Positions 44,107-53,072 of a stretch of DNA of 64,000 nucleotides are shown here, piece after piece. The position numbers and the translations under genes were made by a program. The notes beneath the pieces are model-generated. The model was not told the DNA's origin. It saw nothing but the letters and a program-made list of their open reading frames with translations, and searched no databases. The stretch is from Chamaelirium japonicum (lineage: Eukaryota > Streptophyta > Magnoliopsida > Liliales > Melanthiaceae), in the NCBI GenBank assembly GCA_947650365.1, contig OX393553.1:36344526-36408525 (forward strand). Direction: 5' to 3'. Positions within the stretch are counted from its first letter, which is position 1. Each line of letters opens with the position of its first letter.

Positions 44107-45117
44107 CTCTTTTTTTCTTTTTTCATTTTTCTTTTTTGGTAGACCAGACCACAAAAAGGAAACCCCAAAAAACTAATTACAACAGCCCAAAGACAAGCAA
44201 TGCTTATCCCGGATCATGGATAAGCCTTGGAGAGTAGGTGCCGGTACGATCGAGAAGCAACAGGTGAAGTAGCTCCACATTGGAGGGTTCCCTAACCAAC
44301 TGTAAGCGACGCACCCGATAGCCTTGATTGGCTAGAAAATCCGCAACCTTGTTGGCTTCCCTATAAACATGACGGATCTGCCCACAAGGAACAGACTCAA
44401 AGAGGGCTCGACACTCCCAAAGAATAGGGTCACTCGGATCCAAAGCAAGGAGAGTTTGAACGACCACCTGAGAGTCTTCCGTCAATCCAAAGTGAATGAG
44501 GAGTTAGATGTTTGTGATAATAAATGAGACCATAAAGAAGAGCAAGTTTCTCTGCAACGAATGACGAAGATGTATGAAGAGGACCATAGCCTGCAAGCAG
44601 AAGACCTCCTTGACTATCTCGAAAAACAAAAACAACTCCAGCAAGAGATGAAGTCGAACGGACTGAGCCATCCAAATTTCGCAGGATGACTCTAGTTGGA
44701 GGAGATTGCCAAGTGACCCCAATCAAAGTGCAGTGTCGCAGTTCGGGGGAAGGACAACTCCCAACCTAGAATTCCTCAAACCTAGGAGGATCTGATTGCA
44801 TACCCCTCATCCGGCGAGCCAACCAAGGTTTGCCTCGGCCCAAAGAAAGAACTAACTGAAGCAGGGTATCCACCGACGACGAAGGCTCAATCAAGATTTT
44901 TGCAAGACTGAATACCATACGCCAGATAACGCTAGAAGTACTACAAGAAAACAAAGAATGATTAATTGTCTCAATCTTGAATGGGCATCTAGGGCAAGCA
45001 AGTGGAATCTGAATACCAATGCGGTGTAAATACTCCCTCGTGTGAATCCTGCCATGAAAAAGTTTCCACTCGAAACAGAGTGCACGTGGGGAAGCAGCAG
45101 CCTTCCAAAGTGCCAAC
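44107..45117 (-). mobile_element. LINE 3' half (zf-RVT, RNase H), continued at 52832-53072
   Basis: The minus strand holds a zf-RVT domain (FEWKLFHGRIHTREYLHRIG, CPRCPFKIETINHSLFSC) followed by RNase H (RNLDGSVRSTSSLAGVVFVF, SFVAEKLALLYGLIYYHKHL, IRHVYREANKVADFLANQGY). It ends in a short 3' region and a T-rich plus-strand stretch (44107-44137), i.e. an A-rich LINE tail. Its upstream coding continues beyond the LTR element, at 52832-53072. It is interrupted exactly at the CCAAC target site. Confidence 0.85.
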
Positions 45118-45735
45118 TGTGGGGGGGAAATTTCCGAGCCGCCTTGATCGAGAATCCCGCCCCACAGCCTTGATTGAATTTGATGGTTTGTAGAGTTAGA
45201 GAGATGGGAGAGTAGATAAAGAGAGTAGGGAATAATGACACAAGGATTGGTGACGGAGTTCGGTCTTACGACCTACGTCTCCGGGCGAGAGGTGCCACCT
45301 GATCTTCACTATAATTTGAATATAAAGGGTTGAGCGTTCTCTCGACAGGCCGAGAGAATCTTCGTACAGTGGGGTTGCACGGAGCAACTAGAAGAGAACA
45401 AGGTGGGGAGAAATAGAGGGCTCTGGCTCTGGCTCTGGATCCTCTCTTCCTCTGATCGAATGACCAACCCCCTCCCTGGATGCCTTGGGGGTCTTTTTAT
45501 AGCATAGGCACGTGCTCGATATGTCAGTGATGACGTGGCGATGATGACGTGGCACTGATTATGGGCCTCCTTGCTGGGCCCTTATTGGGCCGTTGTTCGG
45601 GCCCAATAAGGGGGAGGGCTTGATCTGCGAGCCCCGTAGAGTGGGCCCATGTGAGCCCAGGCGGGCTTACCCACTTGGGCCGTTGCGCGGGCCCATGCTG
45701 CTCTGATCTGGTCCGGTATAATTTTTGCACCCACA
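45118..45735 (-). repeat. 3' LTR of the APR-carrying element
   Basis: 618 bp with TGTGGG...CCCACA ends, nearly identical to 52214-52831. It contains 'tgacgtggcgatgatgacgtggcac', a pair of TGACGTGG motifs resembling bZIP/ABRE-type G-box sites. A TATA-like 'ctataaaaagac' on the minus strand lies near 45493-45503. Confidence 0.93.
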
Positions 45736-45747
45736 GTTACCCCCTCC
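45736..45747 (-). promoter_or_regulatory. Polypurine tract of the APR-carrying element
   Basis: The minus strand reads GGAGGGGGTAAC directly before the 3' LTR. Confidence 0.7.
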
Positions 45748-45879
45748 CAGTCGGGTCAGGACCCCCTGGGTCGGCTGGGATTCCAAGGTGCAAACACTTT
45801 AGGATCCTGGCACGGTTGGTGAGGGTTGTCGGTGCCGCGGTTCGTATTAGCAGAGCCTTCTTCCGCCGATGCCGAGACC

Positions 45880-46200
45880 CTTTTTGGCGCGAGCCAAAAA
45901 GTCTCGGTTTTGCGAGGGGGTGTTTCCGAAAAAACAGTGCGTTTTCCGACTGAGTGGATACCGAGAGGGTACCGAGTGCATACCGAGTGGGTACCGAGAG
46001 CATACCGGGTGTGTACCGAGACCCTTTTGGTGTAAGCCAAAAAGTCTCGGTTTTGCAAGGGGGTGTTTCCGAAAAGACAGTGCGTTTTCCGACCGAGTGG
46101 ATACCGAGAGGGTACCGAGTGCATACCGAGAGGGTACCGAGTGCATACCGAGTGGGTACCGAGAGCATACCGAGTGGATACCGAGACCCTTTCGGTGAGA
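45880..46200. repeat. 145-bp duplication enclosing a 12-bp taccgag minisatellite
   Basis: 'gccaaaaagtctcggttttg' occurs near 45894 and 46038, starting two similar blocks. Each block ends in a run of 10-12-bp units of the type 'taccgagtgca / taccgagaggg'. Short ORFs repeating Gly-Tyr-Arg-Glu are products of this period and not evidence of a protein. Confidence 0.85.
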
Positions 46201-46734
46201 GAGCAGCTTTTTCCTTTTTTCCTTTTCTTTCTTTCTCTCTTTCCTTCTCTGTTTCTCATTCACGTGAGAGTGAGAGCAGCGTCCCTCTCTCTCTCTTTCC
46301 TTTCTCGGTCTTCACTTTCTACTTTGGATTTTTCTTTCCTTGCTTTTGAATTTTTTTCCCTCTTTCTTTTCTCTCTCTCTCTTTCCATTTCAGCTTTCAT
46401 GCATTCACGCGTGAGGCTGCAGCTACCCCGCCCTCTCTTTCCATTTCAGCTTTCATGCATTCACGTGAGGATGCCTACAGAACCTCAATGTATTTCAAAT
46501 GGAGCGCTGCTGTTGAACATACAAGGAGACATCGTAGCAGACACAACGCCGATGTGGGTGGCATCGACACCGCCACCAAGCGCCCAACGTCGGCAATCTG
46601 CCGTCGAATGTGTTCTCTTCAATGTTTAAATACCACTTCTTTCTTTTCTTTGGTGGCGACGGTGTCGGGCCGCAGGGTCTAGGCGACGCCAGCGACGAAG
46701 GGCGGCTCGGCCGATCGGATCGGTTGCGAGGCAG

Positions 46735-46915
46735 GCTCCGTGCGAGAGAGAGCGGGTGCGAGAGAGGACCCATGCGAGAGAGAGAGCGGGTGCGAGAGAG
46801 AGCCTTCGGCGAGAGAGAAGACCCATGCGAGAGAGAGCGGGTGCGAGAGAGAGCCCTTGGTGAGAGAAGGGATCCATGCGAGAGAGAGAGCGGGTGCGAG
46901 AGAGCAGACGTCTCT
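46735..46915. repeat. gagagagcgggtgcgagaga minisatellite
   Basis: Irregular units of 20-60 bp built from 'gcgagagagagcgggtgcga' and 'gacccatgcgagaga', next to the 3' end of the captured APS reductase piece. Two copies of a 57-bp block with 'ctctttccatttcagctttc' occur a little further left (46378 and 46435). Confidence 0.8.
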
Positions 46916-46929
46916 CTCTCTTTTTCCTT

Positions 46930-47840
46930 TCTCTCTCTTTACTGCCCCGGCAGGACCGGCCTCGTGCACGGCTCGCACCCGATCGACACGTAGCCTTGTG
47001 AGTGCAGGGAGTTGACGGGGACATCCATGGTTCGGAGGAAACTCCAGATGTCCTTGCCGTCGACGTTCACGACGGGATTCCACTTGATCAGGCTACCGGC
47101 TCCGCCGTCCATGCCTTCGAGGGTCGACCTGAACAACGGGGATGTGGGCTCTGGACCCCGGGGATTGATCCTTGCGCTGGCCGGTGATCCAAGCCCTGAG
47201 GCCCTTGAGGGCCCGCCTCAGCGGCCTCACCTTCCGCACCCTGCTGCACTCCTTGTGCCCGTCTTCGTAGAACGAGAAGAGACCCTTGGTCCTCACAAGC
47301 CCCTGCACCTCCACTGCGTCCGGGAACATGTACTCGATGTGGATGTCGTAGTGCTTCTCCATGGCGTCGAAGAACCTGTAGGTCTCCGGGTTCAGCCGGC
47401 CGGTGTCGAGGCTGAAGACCCTGAAAGGCCGGCCTGTCAGCCGAGCGTATTTGATCAATGCGACATCCTCCGCTCCACTGAAGGTGATGGCGATGTCATT
47501 CCCGAACCGCTCAAGGGCTCGATCCATGATCGCGAGAGGGGAGGCGTGCTCCAGCTCCGCCGCGAGCTTCTCGCAATCGAGATCCTCTTCCTCCTTTGTC
47601 CTCTCCGAGCCCTCCACCCCCGCCGTCGTCGTCGCGGCGGCCAAAGGGGGCGACCGACTCGCTCCTACGATGCGGTTCCACGGTGCGGGCGGGCCTCGCC
47701 ATCAATCGCCACCGGGGAGGTATTTTGGCCGCCGGCGAGGATTCCAGATGCCTGGTGGCGCTGATCTGGGCCGTTCTGGGCTCGCGGGGGACGATTGTGT
47801 GCAGGGAGATGGAACCCGAGAAGGCAGCAACGGAGGCCAT
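46930..47840 (-). pseudogene. APR: Captured host APS reductase (APR) fragment inside LTR element
   Basis: On the minus strand a plastid-type N-terminus starts near 47840 (MASVAAFSGS, Ser/Arg-rich, transit-peptide-like). It is followed by [20 protein letters not shown] and by the reductase domain ([80 protein letters not shown], and finally [19 protein letters not shown]). Plant APR reduces adenosine 5'-phosphosulfate to sulfite in plastids and normally continues into a thioredoxin/glutaredoxin-like domain; that part is missing here. The fragment looks continuous, without visible introns. It lies in the sense direction of the element. It is broken in a few places and is not a working gene. Confidence 0.88.
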
Positions 47841-48595
47841 GAGATCAATGCTCGTGATCAACTTCCTCTGTAATCTTTCCCTCCGTGTAAGAGTCTCGAG
47901 GTCTTCAGACAGTCATAACTTTTCATACACACGTCGGATCAACGCGTATAAGGTGTCGTTGTGTCGGAGCCGAAAAACCGGTCAAAGTGGACGTGAAACA
48001 TCGCACACCTTGACGTGTGACCTTTCGGATGCCTGCCTTCGGAGGAAAAGGCCTCGAAAACTTCCGACTGTTATAACTTTGCGTGTAATATTTCCAATGC
48101 ATGTATTTGGAGAAAAAGACCTTGAAAACTTTCGACAGCCATAACTTTTCATATGTGCGTCGGATGAATGCGTATAAGGTGTCATTGTGTAGGCGCTGAA
48201 GAACCAGTCAAAGTGGACGTAAAACATTGTTCGCCTTGACGAGTAACTTTTTCGATAATCACCTTCATGAAGAGATGACTCTAAAGAAAGCGTTGGCCGA
48301 GTGTCCTACGCGCGTCTTGAAGAGGCATCGATACGCGGTAACTCATCCGTCTCTGTTCGACACCCAACTGCACCTAGTTACTGTATTCACTAGGGACTGC
48401 AGTCGGGCCCTAGCGATGACGCGGCGGTTACCACGAGTCCACCCCCAGATAAGAAGGAGGAATTTTGCTTGTGAAGTTTGTACAGCCAACTCAATAGGTT
48501 TGGTGGAGATGCGATTCAACCAACCCAATGGAGGAATTCTTCGTCTTTGGCTGGTCCTTGTGTGTGGATGACACCTGAATCGGGTTGACTAATAG
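47841..48595. other. Internal spacer of the LTR element, no gene
   Basis: Two or three related blocks of about 85 bp occur ('cataacttttcatacacacgtcggatcaacg', near 47923-47955 and 48140-48172; 'cctcgaaaacttccgac' and 'ccttgaaaactttcgac'). No recognised coding sequence. Confidence 0.6.
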
Positions 48596-49560
48596 GTTTC
48601 GATGACGCCGGGCACCCCTCCTCTCGGTTTTCTGACGAAACCGAGGGGTGTGCTGCTGATGCATGGTGTGTCGTCCCCCCCCCCCTCCCCACTCGGTTTT
48701 TGTGCGAAACCGAGGGGGGGGTTGCTTGTTGATGCCGACACACACCCCCTCTCGGTTTTCTGACGAAACCGAGGGGTGTGCTGATGGTGTGCCATCACCC
48801 CCTCCCCATTCGATTTTTATGCGAAACCGAGGGGGGGGGGTTGCTTGTTGATGCCGACACACACCCTCTCTCGGTTTTCTGACGAAACCGAGGGGTGTGC
48901 TGATGGTGTGCCATCACCCCCTCCCCACTCGATTTTTGTGCGAACCGAGGGGGGGGTTGCTTGTTGATGCCGACACACACCCCCTCTCGGTTTTCTGACG
49001 AAACCGAGGGGTGTGCTGATGGTGTGCCGTCACCCCCTCCCCACTCGGGTTTTGTGCGAAACCGAGGGGGGGCTTCTTGCTGATGCCGACACACACCCCC
49101 TCTCGGTTTTCTGATGAAACCGAGGGGTGTGCTGCTGATACGCCGTCACCCCCTCGCCACTTGGTTTTTGTGCGAAACCGAGGGGGGGGGTTGCTTGTTG
49201 ATGCCGACACACACCCCCTCTCGGTTTTCTGACGAAACCGAGGGGTGTGCTGATGGTGTGCCGTCACCCCCTCCCCACTCGGTTTTTGTGCGAAACCGAG
49301 GGGGGGATGCTTGTTGGTGCCGACACACACCCCCTCTCGGTTTTCTGACGAAACCGAGGGGTGTGCTGATGGTGTGCCGTCACCCCCTCCCCACTCGGTT
49401 TTTGTGCGAAACCGAGGGGGGGTTGCTTGTTGATGCCGACACACACCCCCTCTCGATTTTTGACGAAACCGAGGGGTGTGCTGCTGATGGTGTGCCGTCA
49501 CCTCTTCCCTACTCGGTTTTTGTGCGAAACCGAGGGGGGGCTGCTTGTTGGTGCCGACAC
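48596..49560. repeat. 117-bp tandem array of paired cgaaaccgag hairpins
   Basis: About eight units with period about 116-119 bp ('gccgacacacac' at 48734, 48853, 48969, 49085, 49203, 49319, 49435). Each unit has two stems, CTCGGTTT-tctgacg-AAACCGAG and CTCGGTTT-ttgtgcg-AAACCGAG, separated by C-runs and G-runs. Most differences are in the length of G/C runs. Confidence 0.92.
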
Positions 49561-50035
49561 CCCATTATTGGGGCTGCTAGAAGAGGCCAAAAAGTGTCGG
49601 TATTGAAAATAGTGTATTTTTCGAATTTTAGCCCCTTTTGAAACCGACACTTTTTCGGTAAAACGCTGGTGCGCGAGGATGTCAGCAAGGGACAATGCTA
49701 CATTCGAGGGGGTTTCTTAGAGATAATCTAGGATGACACCGCATGATGGCCAGCCGGTCTTCACCCAATGTATTACCGTACCTGGTTACTGTATTCATCA
49801 GGTACTACGGTCACGCGAGGGTGTTGACTTGGCCAGGATCAAGGAAGCACCATTTTATCCCGTGTTACCCACCGTCGACTGCACCAGTGTGGAGACACGC
49901 ATTGACAGAGTCAGACCAACCACCCCCTGACCGGCTTGGAACCGTTAGTCGTCGAGAAAAGGTGATGGCCATTGACAATCTAATGCTTGGACCTGAGTGA
50001 CAAGACTAAGCTTGGACTTTTGATCGAATGCCAAT
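49561..50035. other. Spacer between tandem arrays, no gene
   Basis: It contains 'gccaaaaagtgtcggtattg' and 'gaaaccgacactttttcggt', inverted to each other (49588-49660). The rest shows no domain or repeat. Confidence 0.6.
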
Positions 50036-50935
50036 ACGTCGGCGACGACGTCTCGGACCTTGTCTTCGAATGCCAAGAGCTGGGCCTTGGGCTTGTAGAG
50101 TGTTAAGGCGTTGGTCGCCTCGAACTTTGTCTTCAAGTGCCAAGGGCTGGGCCTTGGGCTTGTAGAGTGCCGAGGCGCTGGTCGCCTCGGACTTTGTCTT
50201 CAAGTGCCAAGGGCTGGGCCTTGGGCTTGTAGAGTGCCGATGCGTTGGTCTCCTCGGACTTTGTCTTCAAGTGCCAAGGGCTGGGCCTTGGGCTTGTAGA
50301 GTGCCGAGGCGTTGGTCGCCTCGGACTTTGTCTTCGAGTGCCAAGGGCTGGGCCTTGGGCTTGTAGAGTGCCGAGGCATTGATCGCCTCGGACTTTGTCT
50401 TCGAGTGCCAAGGGCAGAGCCTTGGGCTTGTAGAGTGCCGAGGCATTGACCGCCTCAGACTTTGTCTTCGAGTGCCAAGGGCAGGGCCTTCGGCTTATAG
50501 AGTGCCGAGGCGTTGGTCGCCTCGGACTTTGTCTTCGAGTGCCAAGGGCTGGGCCTTGGGCTTGTAGAGTGCCGAGGCATTGATCGCCTCAGACTTTGTC
50601 TTCGAGTGCCAAGGGCAGGGCCTTGGGCTTGTAGAGTGCCGAGGCATTGACCGCCTCAGACTTTGTCTTCGAGTGCCAAGGGCAGGGCCTTGGGCTTATA
50701 GAGTGCCGAGGCGTTGGTCGCCTCGGACTTTGTCTTCGAGTGCCAAGGGCTGGGCCTTGGGCTTGTAGAGTGCCGAGGCATTGATCGCCTCGGACTTTGT
50801 CTTCGAGTGCCAAGGGCTGGGCCTTGGGCTTGTAGAGTGCCGAGGCATTGGTCGCCTCGGACTTTGTCTTCGAGTGCCAAGGGCTGGGCCTTGGGCTTGT
50901 AGAGTACCGAGGCATTGGTCACCTCGGATAAGTAT
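50036..50935. repeat. 67-bp tandem array, about 13 units
   Basis: The unit 'gcctcggactttgtcttcgagtgccaagggctggg...cttgtagagtgccgaggc' repeats with a 67-bp period. The left units are more diverged and internal higher-order pairs are seen ('ggcagggcc' against 'ggctgggcc' variants). The period is not a multiple of three, so ORFs crossing it change frame each unit and have no coding meaning. Confidence 0.93.
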
Positions 50936-51700
50936 AGTTGATAGTTTAGCTTGACCTGGATTGTCAGGAGCATTTTTATCTGACTTTCGCCTTGAAAGGG
51001 CGTAGCCGAATTGCCTTCGAGCTTCCGACTTGAATGGGCGGAATCGAAGGTCTTTGGTTGACCTGGGTTGCCAGGAGCATTTTTATCGGACTTTCGCCTT
51101 GAAAGGACGTAGCCGAATTGCCTTCGAGCTTCCAACTTGATTGGGCAGAATCGAAGGTCTTTGGTTGACCTGGGTTGCCAGGAGCCTTTTTATCGGACTT
51201 TAGCCTCGAGAGGGCGTAGCCGAATTGCCTTCGAGCTTCCGACTTGAATGGGCGGAATCGAAGGTCTTTGGTTGACCTGGGTTGGCAGGAGCCTTTTTAT
51301 CGGACTTTAGCCTCGTGAGGGCGTAGCCGAATTGCCTTCGAGCTTCCGACTTGAACGGGCGGAATCGAAGATCTTTGGTTGACCTGGGTTGCCAGGAGCC
51401 TTTTTATCGGACTTTAGCCTCGAGAGGGCGTAGCCGAATTACCTTCGAGCTTCCGACTTGGATGGGCGGAATCGAAGGTCTTTGGTTGACCTGGGTTGCC
51501 AGGAGCCTTTTATCGGATTTTAGCCTCGAGAGGGCGTAGCCGAATTGCCTTCGAGCTTCCGACTTGAATGGGCGGAATCGAAGGTCTTTGATTGACCTGG
51601 GTTGACAGGAGCCTTTTTATCGGACTTTAGCCTCGAGAGGGCGTAGCCGAATTGCCTTCGAGCTTCCGACTTGAATGGGCGGAATCGAAGGTCTTTGGTT
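50936..51700. repeat. 108-bp tandem array, about 7 units
   Basis: 'ggtctttggttgacctgggt' recurs every 108 bp (51049, 51157, 51265 and onwards). 108 bp is exactly 36 codons. On the minus strand each unit reads QPKTFDSAHSSRKLEGNSAT, joined to a K/S-rich part, and the array directly follows the gag-like region in the same strand. It may therefore be an expanded protein repeat of a former gag-like protein. Confidence 0.92.
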
Positions 51701-52190
51701 GGTCTTCATCAGCAGTTGGAGAGTTATGGGCCACAACCCCCGCTCTTTCAGCTACCTTCTTTAGGGAATCCCTCTCTTGCTCGAGGGCTGCGTTCCTCTT
51801 GAGAAGGTTCAACAGCTGGAAATCAGCAGCCGAAATTTGGTATGTAGTTAGATCGTTGTCCCCTTGGGTGGCGTGCTCTTTGCCAGATTGTTGCCTCGGG
51901 AATGGTGGGTCCTACCGATTGCTGTGGCTTCCCGGATGACTTCCTTGTGGCCCCAGTCGCTTATAAACATTTCTTCGATTGGTTGCAACCGAGACTTCTT
52001 GTTCTTCTTCGATTAGCACGTCGATTGTCCGATCAGCACCCGCCTTTGGTGGGTTGGTGCTGGCCTTCACCATTGAGCGTGTTGATGTCGGCGTGGTGAA
52101 GGCTTTGAGGTTGATTTGGAGGAGGACTTGTGGCTCGTCACCACAAGCTGAATAGGAGTCGGTAGAGGTGTGGGTAAGACCTCTATCGAT
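51700..52190 (-). pseudogene. Gag-like leader ORF region of the APR-carrying element
   Basis: It begins shortly after the primer site. The minus strand shows DRTIDVLIEEEQEVSVATNR and, further on, NLLKRNAALEQERDSLKKVA, a short coiled-coil. This is the style of the N-terminal part of gag-like proteins in plant Gypsy-related non-autonomous elements. No capsid or knuckle motif is seen. It is broken. Confidence 0.55.
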
Positions 52191-52192
52191 AT

Positions 52193-52208
52193 CCCACAGA
52201 CGGCGCCA
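52193..52208 (-). promoter_or_regulatory. TGGCGCC-type primer-binding site
   Basis: The minus strand reads TGGCGCCGTCTGTGGG, five bases inside the 5' LTR. The first nine bases match the 3' end complement of plant tRNA-Asp; the rest diverge, as is often seen in plant Gypsy-type elements. Confidence 0.75.
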
Positions 52209-52213
52209 AAGAT

Positions 52214-52831
52214 TGTGGGGGGGAAATTTCCGAGCCGCCTTGATCGAGAATCCCGCCCCACAGCCTTGATTGAATTTGATGGTTTGTAGAGTTAGAGAGA
52301 TGGGAGAGTAGATAAAGAGAGTAGGGAATAATGACACAAGGATTGGTGACGGAGTTCGGTCTTACGACCTACGTCTCCGGGCGAGAGGTGCCACCTGATC
52401 TTCACTATAATTTGAATATAAAGGGTTGAGCGTTCTCTCGACAGGCCGAGAGAATCTTCGTACAGTGGGGTTGCACGGAGCAACTAGAAGAGAACAAGGT
52501 GGGGAGAAATAGAGGGCTCTGGCTCTGGCTCTGGATCCTCTCTTCCTCTGATCGAATGACCAACCCCCTCCCTGGATGCCTTGGGGGTCTTTTTATAGCG
52601 TAGGCACATGCCCGATATGTCAGTGATGACGTGGCGATGATGACGTGGCACTGATTCTGAGCCTCCTTGCTGGGCCCTTATTGGGCCGTTGTTCGGGCCC
52701 AACAAGGGGGAGGGCTTGATCTGCGAGCCCCGTAGAGTGGGCCCATGTGAGCCCAGGCGGGCTTACCCACTTGGGCCGTTGCGCGGGCCCATGCTGCTCT
52801 GATCTGGTCCGGTACAATTTTTGCACCCACA
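52214..52831 (-). repeat. 5' LTR of the APR-carrying element
   Basis: The 618-bp partner of 45118-45735; about seven single-base differences, no indels seen. Confidence 0.93.
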
Positions 52832-53072
52832 CCAACCAAGGTCCCTCCATCAACATTAGTCCCTGATCAATAGTAGATTGAAACACCCCATACGACTCTC
52901 TGCGATACATATTTTCTCTAGCAGAAGTGTCCCAGACATAGCACGAGATCAGGGGGTTTGTGAGGATTGGAGTAGAGAGGATAATATGGCTCTAATACTC
53001 AGGGAAGTCAACATGCACCAATTCCCAATTCCACCCACCACCCTCGATCATCAACTCGGAGATAGACACTAA
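52832..53072 (-). mobile_element. LINE upstream piece, separated by the LTR element
   Basis: The minus strand reads VSISELMIEGGGWNWELVHV and ARENMYRRESYGVFQS, a region normally just before zf-RVT in plant L1-type ORF2. It continues directly into 45117 after the target duplication. The LINE is cut off at about 53072, where 'taagggggtgtttggc' begins. Confidence 0.75.

Follow-up and report, generated by a model that had tools for sequence, protein, structure and literature searches.

Capture of a spliced APS reductase mRNA by an LTR retrotransposon family of Chamaelirium japonicum

LTR retrotransposons that carry pieces of host genes are already known from maize, rice and sorghum. The maize element Bs1 is reported to hold pieces of a plasma-membrane H+-ATPase gene and of two other genes, and a template switch from element to mRNA is described as a route by which chimeric plant elements arise (PMC13317346). 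In maize B73, fragments of genes from at least 189 captures have been reported in 425 intact LTR elements (PMC2774510). Many LTR-captured genes are described as decaying neutrally in rice, and many as expressed and under purifying selection in sorghum (PMC3726574); given this constraint, the status of a captured gene as a mere passenger cannot be taken for granted.

Here, we analysed a window of 64,000 nucleotides (C5:36344526-36408525 of the 1.52-Gb assembly G000, to which all C-numbered coordinates refer), in which an LTR element encloses a segment of an APS reductase (APR) gene. The best explanation, to which we assign a probability of about 0.9, is that a non-autonomous LTR family captured a spliced mRNA of the host APR once and then multiplied, the segment being a neutrally decaying passenger. 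This reading is carried by junctions that agree between copies, the loss of the parent's introns, the LTR and duplication anatomy of five copies, a copy number that is a lower bound, the loss of a cysteine and a pattern of substitution that is neutral overall.

The element is complete (Table 1) and bears the marks of an LTR retrotransposon, namely near-identical direct LTRs with TG...CA ends and a short target-site duplication. Its LTRs of 618 bp each are identical at 611 positions (BLASTN), confirming the roughly seven differences initially counted, which consist of six transitions and one transversion. Candidate PBS-like TTGGCGCCG and PPT-like GGGAGGGGG stretches lie at the expected places between the LTRs, and GGGGTAAC precedes the 3' LTR in four further copies as well. 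Three sets of tandem repeats, of 67, 107 and about 116 bp, occupy parts of the internal region. An open reading frame list with a minimum of 80 codons comprised 48 frames on both strands, 33 of them on the minus strand. In agreement with an element described as lacking pol, the gag and pol genes of an autonomous Ty1-copia or Ty3-gypsy element were not found, no Pfam match exceeding the curated cut-off in the 10 of these 33 minus-strand frames that were scanned, a search that short or badly broken pieces could escape. Three Pfam matches below the cut-off all fell on one repeat frame of the window element.

Table 1. Features of the window element, in window coordinates.
Feature	Position	Strand	Remarks
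LTR element, complete	45118-52831	minus	7,714 bp; LTR pair and 5-bp duplication CCAAC
5' LTR	52214..52831	-	TGTGGG...CCCACA ends; BLASTN against the other LTR
3' LTR	45118..45735	-	BLASTN against the other LTR
Target-site duplication CCAAC	45113..45117, second copy 52832-52836	.	Read from sequence
Stretch TTGGCGCCGTCTGTGGG, presumably PBS-like	52193..52209	-	Just inside the 5' LTR; read from sequence
Stretch GGGAGGGGG, presumably polypurine-tract-like	45740..45748	-	Just before the 3' LTR; read from sequence
Captured APR mRNA segment	46942..47897	-	956 nt; 57 nt of 5' UTR and codons 1-301; frameshifted
Site of parent intron 1 (90 nt, GT-AG), intron absent	47477..47478	-	Alignment to C2 gene
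Site of parent intron 2 (86 nt, GT-AG), intron absent	46995..46996	-	Alignment to C2 gene
Direct repeats, about 116 bp	48716..49576	-	Internal region
Direct repeats, 67 bp	49982..50951	-	Internal region
Direct repeats, 107 bp	50946..51724	-	Internal region

The element is inserted into a LINE on the minus strand (window 44766-45112 and 52837 onward), whose zf-RVT domain (PF13966) was recognised by Pfam on one side of the insertion. Once the element and one CCAAC are taken out, the reading frame of the LINE runs unbroken across the empty site, which together with the duplications marks this as a real and complete insertion. The initial annotation had allowed for a different origin, in which a real single-copy APR gene was misjoined into LTR sequence during assembly. 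We rejected this on the duplications, the empty site and the presence, in the same assembly, of 22 loci with the segment and of a separate intron-bearing gene; no point in its favour was found, and we regard it as extremely improbable.

The captured segment combines an N-terminal region, presumably transit-peptide-like, with the reductase domain. It starts 57 nt ahead of the ATG, ends after the LPGQ codons and is sense-oriented within the element, as first annotated, both lying on the minus strand. The PAPS_reduct domain (PF01507) was recognised on two pieces in different minus-strand frames (E 7.5e-30 and 1.2e-15), no Pfam family matched the N-terminal piece of 66 residues, and the best solved relative is the APS reductase 2goy (E 1.1e-49). 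Two frameshifts, +1 after coding nt 195 and -5 at nt 719, interrupt the window copy. The APR piece had been placed at 46930..47840, where it is indeed found, but its limits and strand are those of Table 1. Similarly, the presumably transit-peptide-like start and the reductase domain of the original description are present, but the segment stops at codon 301 without the tail that bears the catalytic Cys. To speak of most of the gene was an overstatement, given the absent catalytic tail and redox domain and the change in one Fe-S ligand. In the window copy, the stretch from the 5' LTR to the start of APR contains 34 ATGs, which makes translation of its APR segment by simple scanning unlikely.

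The presumed parent is a gene on C2 (ATG at 81760575, minus strand), with which the window copy shares 855 of 898 coding nucleotides. It was named so because it was the only intron-bearing locus found among the best-scored candidates, and another APR paralogue might conceivably be the direct parent. The C2 gene continues past the captured span to KECGLH and part of a redox domain: its reductase part, KECGLH included, can be aligned to 2goy, and a stretch of 37 residues farther along matches 5yry, the redox domain of Arabidopsis APR1. In the piece of the third exon that was searched, Pfam recognised no family, the redox identity of this part thus being based on the 37-residue match. The parent is presumed to be the plastid-type APS reductase gene of the host.

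Two GT-AG introns divide the captured span in the C2 gene, the first (90 nt) following coding nt 362 and the second (86 nt) coding nt 849. The alignment with host APR genes that the initial annotation had proposed hence disposes of a parent that is itself intronless over this span. The window copy has neither intron, the sequence closing at the exact splice points, and no insertion was found at either site in the 22 captured copies, wherever these cover the sites. A host segment that lies within LTRs and lacks the introns of its parent is what capture by the mRNA route leaves behind, and the loss of both introns at exact splice points shows that the source was a spliced APR mRNA, as the intron-free appearance of the stretch had first suggested. 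Capture at the DNA level, by Helitron or Pack-type elements, is reported to be common in plants (PMC2774510); the same exact loss of two introns already contradicts it here, the LTRs and 5-bp duplications identify an LTR element, and we leave this route next to no probability.

Counting genomic copies, a check also proposed at the outset, showed that the captured segment is a member of a repeat family and not a private chimera. A DNA search of the assembly returned 26 matches, corresponding to 22 captured loci and the presumed parent, these counts being lower bounds. At the 5' junction, the start position is the same in all 20 copies that cover it, with a few point differences, while L018 and L019 are cut there. 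The 3' end is visible in 19 of the 22 copies, APR similarity ending at the LPGQ codons or 3 nt later; the sequence beyond varies to some extent from group to group, L009 has a different one, and L020-L022 show no matching 3' end. The agreement of the junctions points to a single capture event that was later amplified to at least 22 loci.

The copies fall into two groups. Group B, 15 copies including that of the window, has the +1 and -5 frameshifts in common, whereas the seven copies of group A have a frame without these two indels, which is fully open over its 301 codons in five of them (L010, L013, L014, L015 and L017). When the C2 gene serves as the root of the tree, L017 is the first to branch off and the others are nearly star-like; group A does not form one clade, L016 standing nearer to group B (support 62). 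L019 was left out of the codon and substitution analyses, as the tree places it at zero distance from L018 over the segment. Rows clipped in the codon, tree and substitution analyses, at the limit of the match, are L018 and L019 (5' end), L020 and L021 (3' end) and L022 (both ends).

Several copies depart from the regular structure. L018 and L019 (C19:2831092-2837484) are arranged as LTR-APR-LTR-APR and repeat in tandem every 2,590 bp. Here the LTR is fused straight to the APR segment about 108 nt in, the array being an internally deleted element that was tandemly duplicated; we considered these copies as real genes and rejected them as such on this structure. In L009 (C1:97243218-97247124), the 3' LTR starts only about 325 bp past the APR segment, the intervening region being mostly missing, and at the 5' end of L059 (C4:44729932-44731732) only LTR positions 539-618 were found, the 5' LTR being truncated or interrupted. 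The LTRs of the other APR carriers L057, L058, L060, L061, L065 and L066 are 87-91% identical to the window LTR and their APR segments 95-99%; this lower identity of the LTRs suggests that LTRs may have recombined among family members.

LTR pairs and target-site duplications were examined in five of the 22 copies, which proved to be complete insertions, each with a different 5-bp duplication; ages were obtained with a substitution rate that we took to be 1.3e-8 per site per year. The window copy (duplication CCAAC, 7/618 differences) dates to 0.44 My, the C9 copy (GTACC, 3/614) and the C1 copy (CAAAC, 3/612) each to 0.19 My, the C11 copy (ATGCC, 16/601) to 1.05 My and the C10 copy (GGCAC, 24/579) to 1.66 My; all ages double at half this rate. 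The half million years originally proposed for the chimera thus fits the insertion in the window only. As the oldest dated carrier is 1.66 My old, the capture itself is older than that at 1.3e-8.

What the captured frame could encode was judged against the plant enzyme. The KECGLH motif of the parent, which we take to hold the catalytic Cys, and its redox-domain (thioredoxin-like) sequence both lie beyond the end of the segment, which hence has neither catalytic Cys nor C-terminal redox domain. The N-terminal domain of plant APR is reported to have five conserved Cys, of which four are Fe-S ligands and the fifth is catalytic (PMC9426629). Four of these are present in the parent segment, at codons 198, 199, 290 and 293. 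Codon 199, which aligns to the second Cys of the conserved ECC in 2goy, does not encode Cys in any of the 21 analysed copies (20 Ser, 1 Ile; L019 dropped), so that by this alignment the captured copies lack the four-ligand set. A truncated plant APR without the redox domain is described as inactive unless thioredoxin is added (PMC6827007), and loss of that domain would therefore not be decisive alone. With both the catalytic tail and a cluster ligand lost, an active enzyme is very unlikely from any analysed copy, and it is almost certain that the captured protein has no reductase activity.

Substitutions among the copies are compatible with neutrality overall. Under a model with base- and CpG-specific mutation classes, the 185 non-stem substitutions comprise 114 non-synonymous or stop and 71 synonymous changes (expected 114.5 and 70.5), an N/S ratio of 0.99 of expectation. 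Private changes of group A, the translatable group, show no constraint (1.09 of expectation). Those of the frame-broken group B lean synonymous (32 N to 34 S, 0.58 of expectation, P 0.017; 0.47 with a first model of coarse mutation classes), and the other shared changes lean non-synonymous (38 N to 13 S, 1.89, P 0.028), deviations which indicate that the neutral model is rough. The stem, i.e. 27 differences present in at least 90% of copies, leans synonymous (14 N and 13 S, expected N 18.4; 0.51, P 0.052) and includes evolution of the parent gene itself. An active or selected APR copy was considered in view of the five open frames and of PF01507 matches in open frames reaching 523 codons; it was rejected as the leading reading on the overall neutral N/S, the change of codon 199 in 21 of 21 copies and the absent catalytic tail. 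Equally, copies whose 301-codon frame is open (5 of 22) could yield a shortened reductase-domain protein in use by the host, for example as a decoy pairing with the real APR. The unconstrained private changes of group A, the altered Fe-S ligand and the ATGs upstream of the window copy make such a use very unlikely.

The passenger reading is the one we prefer, and the following course of events would account for it. APR mRNA would have been co-packaged with element RNA, and the reverse transcriptase probably switched template to the APR mRNA and back; the chimera would then have multiplied to its present loci with enzymes supplied in trans by another element. Carried along in the element RNA, the captured segment would encode no active APS reductase and decay neutrally. 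We infer the template switch, the supply in trans and the lack of a host function. Against this reading stand the five copies with an open frame, whose translation is conceivable; one of these, L010, is an insertion of only about 0.19 My.

Element transcripts might also act as RNA, by yielding 21-24-nt RNAs that match the APR mRNA or locus and lower expression of the parent. Transposon-derived 24-nt RNAs usually target the transposon itself, which speaks against regulation of the parent, and small RNAs from a sense transcript require a second-strand step. In favour, the captured segment is long and sense-oriented. Of the 938 21-mers that the parent has in this span, the window copy matches 311 exactly, and 519 have an exact match in one or more of the 22 copies; with about a third of them shared by the window copy, small-RNA cross-talk with the parent is possible. 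Unique small RNAs have been reported on 85 LTR-captured genes of rice and 812 of sorghum (PMC3726574). Taken together, we consider regulation of the parent improbable. The same low probability applies to the broader proposal that the family, from its dispersed loci, supplies small RNAs or a cluster-less APR protein tuning sulfate assimilation of the host, the open-frame copies being the recent suppliers. If small RNAs did link the element to its parent, the family would offer a test case for transposon control of a key metabolic step.

A literature search judged by title returned no earlier report of an APS reductase captured by an LTR retrotransposon. The captured copies share the reductase domain of the plant plastid APR, but are without its catalytic-Cys tail, its thioredoxin-like domain and one Fe-S ligand. 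For annotation, the open frames of 402 to 523 codons that resemble APR in this genome are passengers of transposons and not to be listed as genes of sulfur metabolism. In process, this is an ordinary LTR gene capture that is well resolved, a clean and datable mRNA capture in which parent introns, junctions, the Cys change, two groups and dates come from one assembly. As in the rice and sorghum cases, the captured gene expanded with its LTR element, although many of the sorghum genes are reported as expressed and constrained (PMC3726574). The family resembles Bs1 as an LTR element carrying host gene pieces, and differs from this reportedly transcribed and translated chimeric gene in holding one captured gene, APR, at 22 or more loci (PMC13317346). 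With the elements reported from maize B73 it shares capture followed by amplification; the host gene is another one, and for this one family the presumed parent, its introns, the junctions and some of the dates are resolved (PMC2774510).
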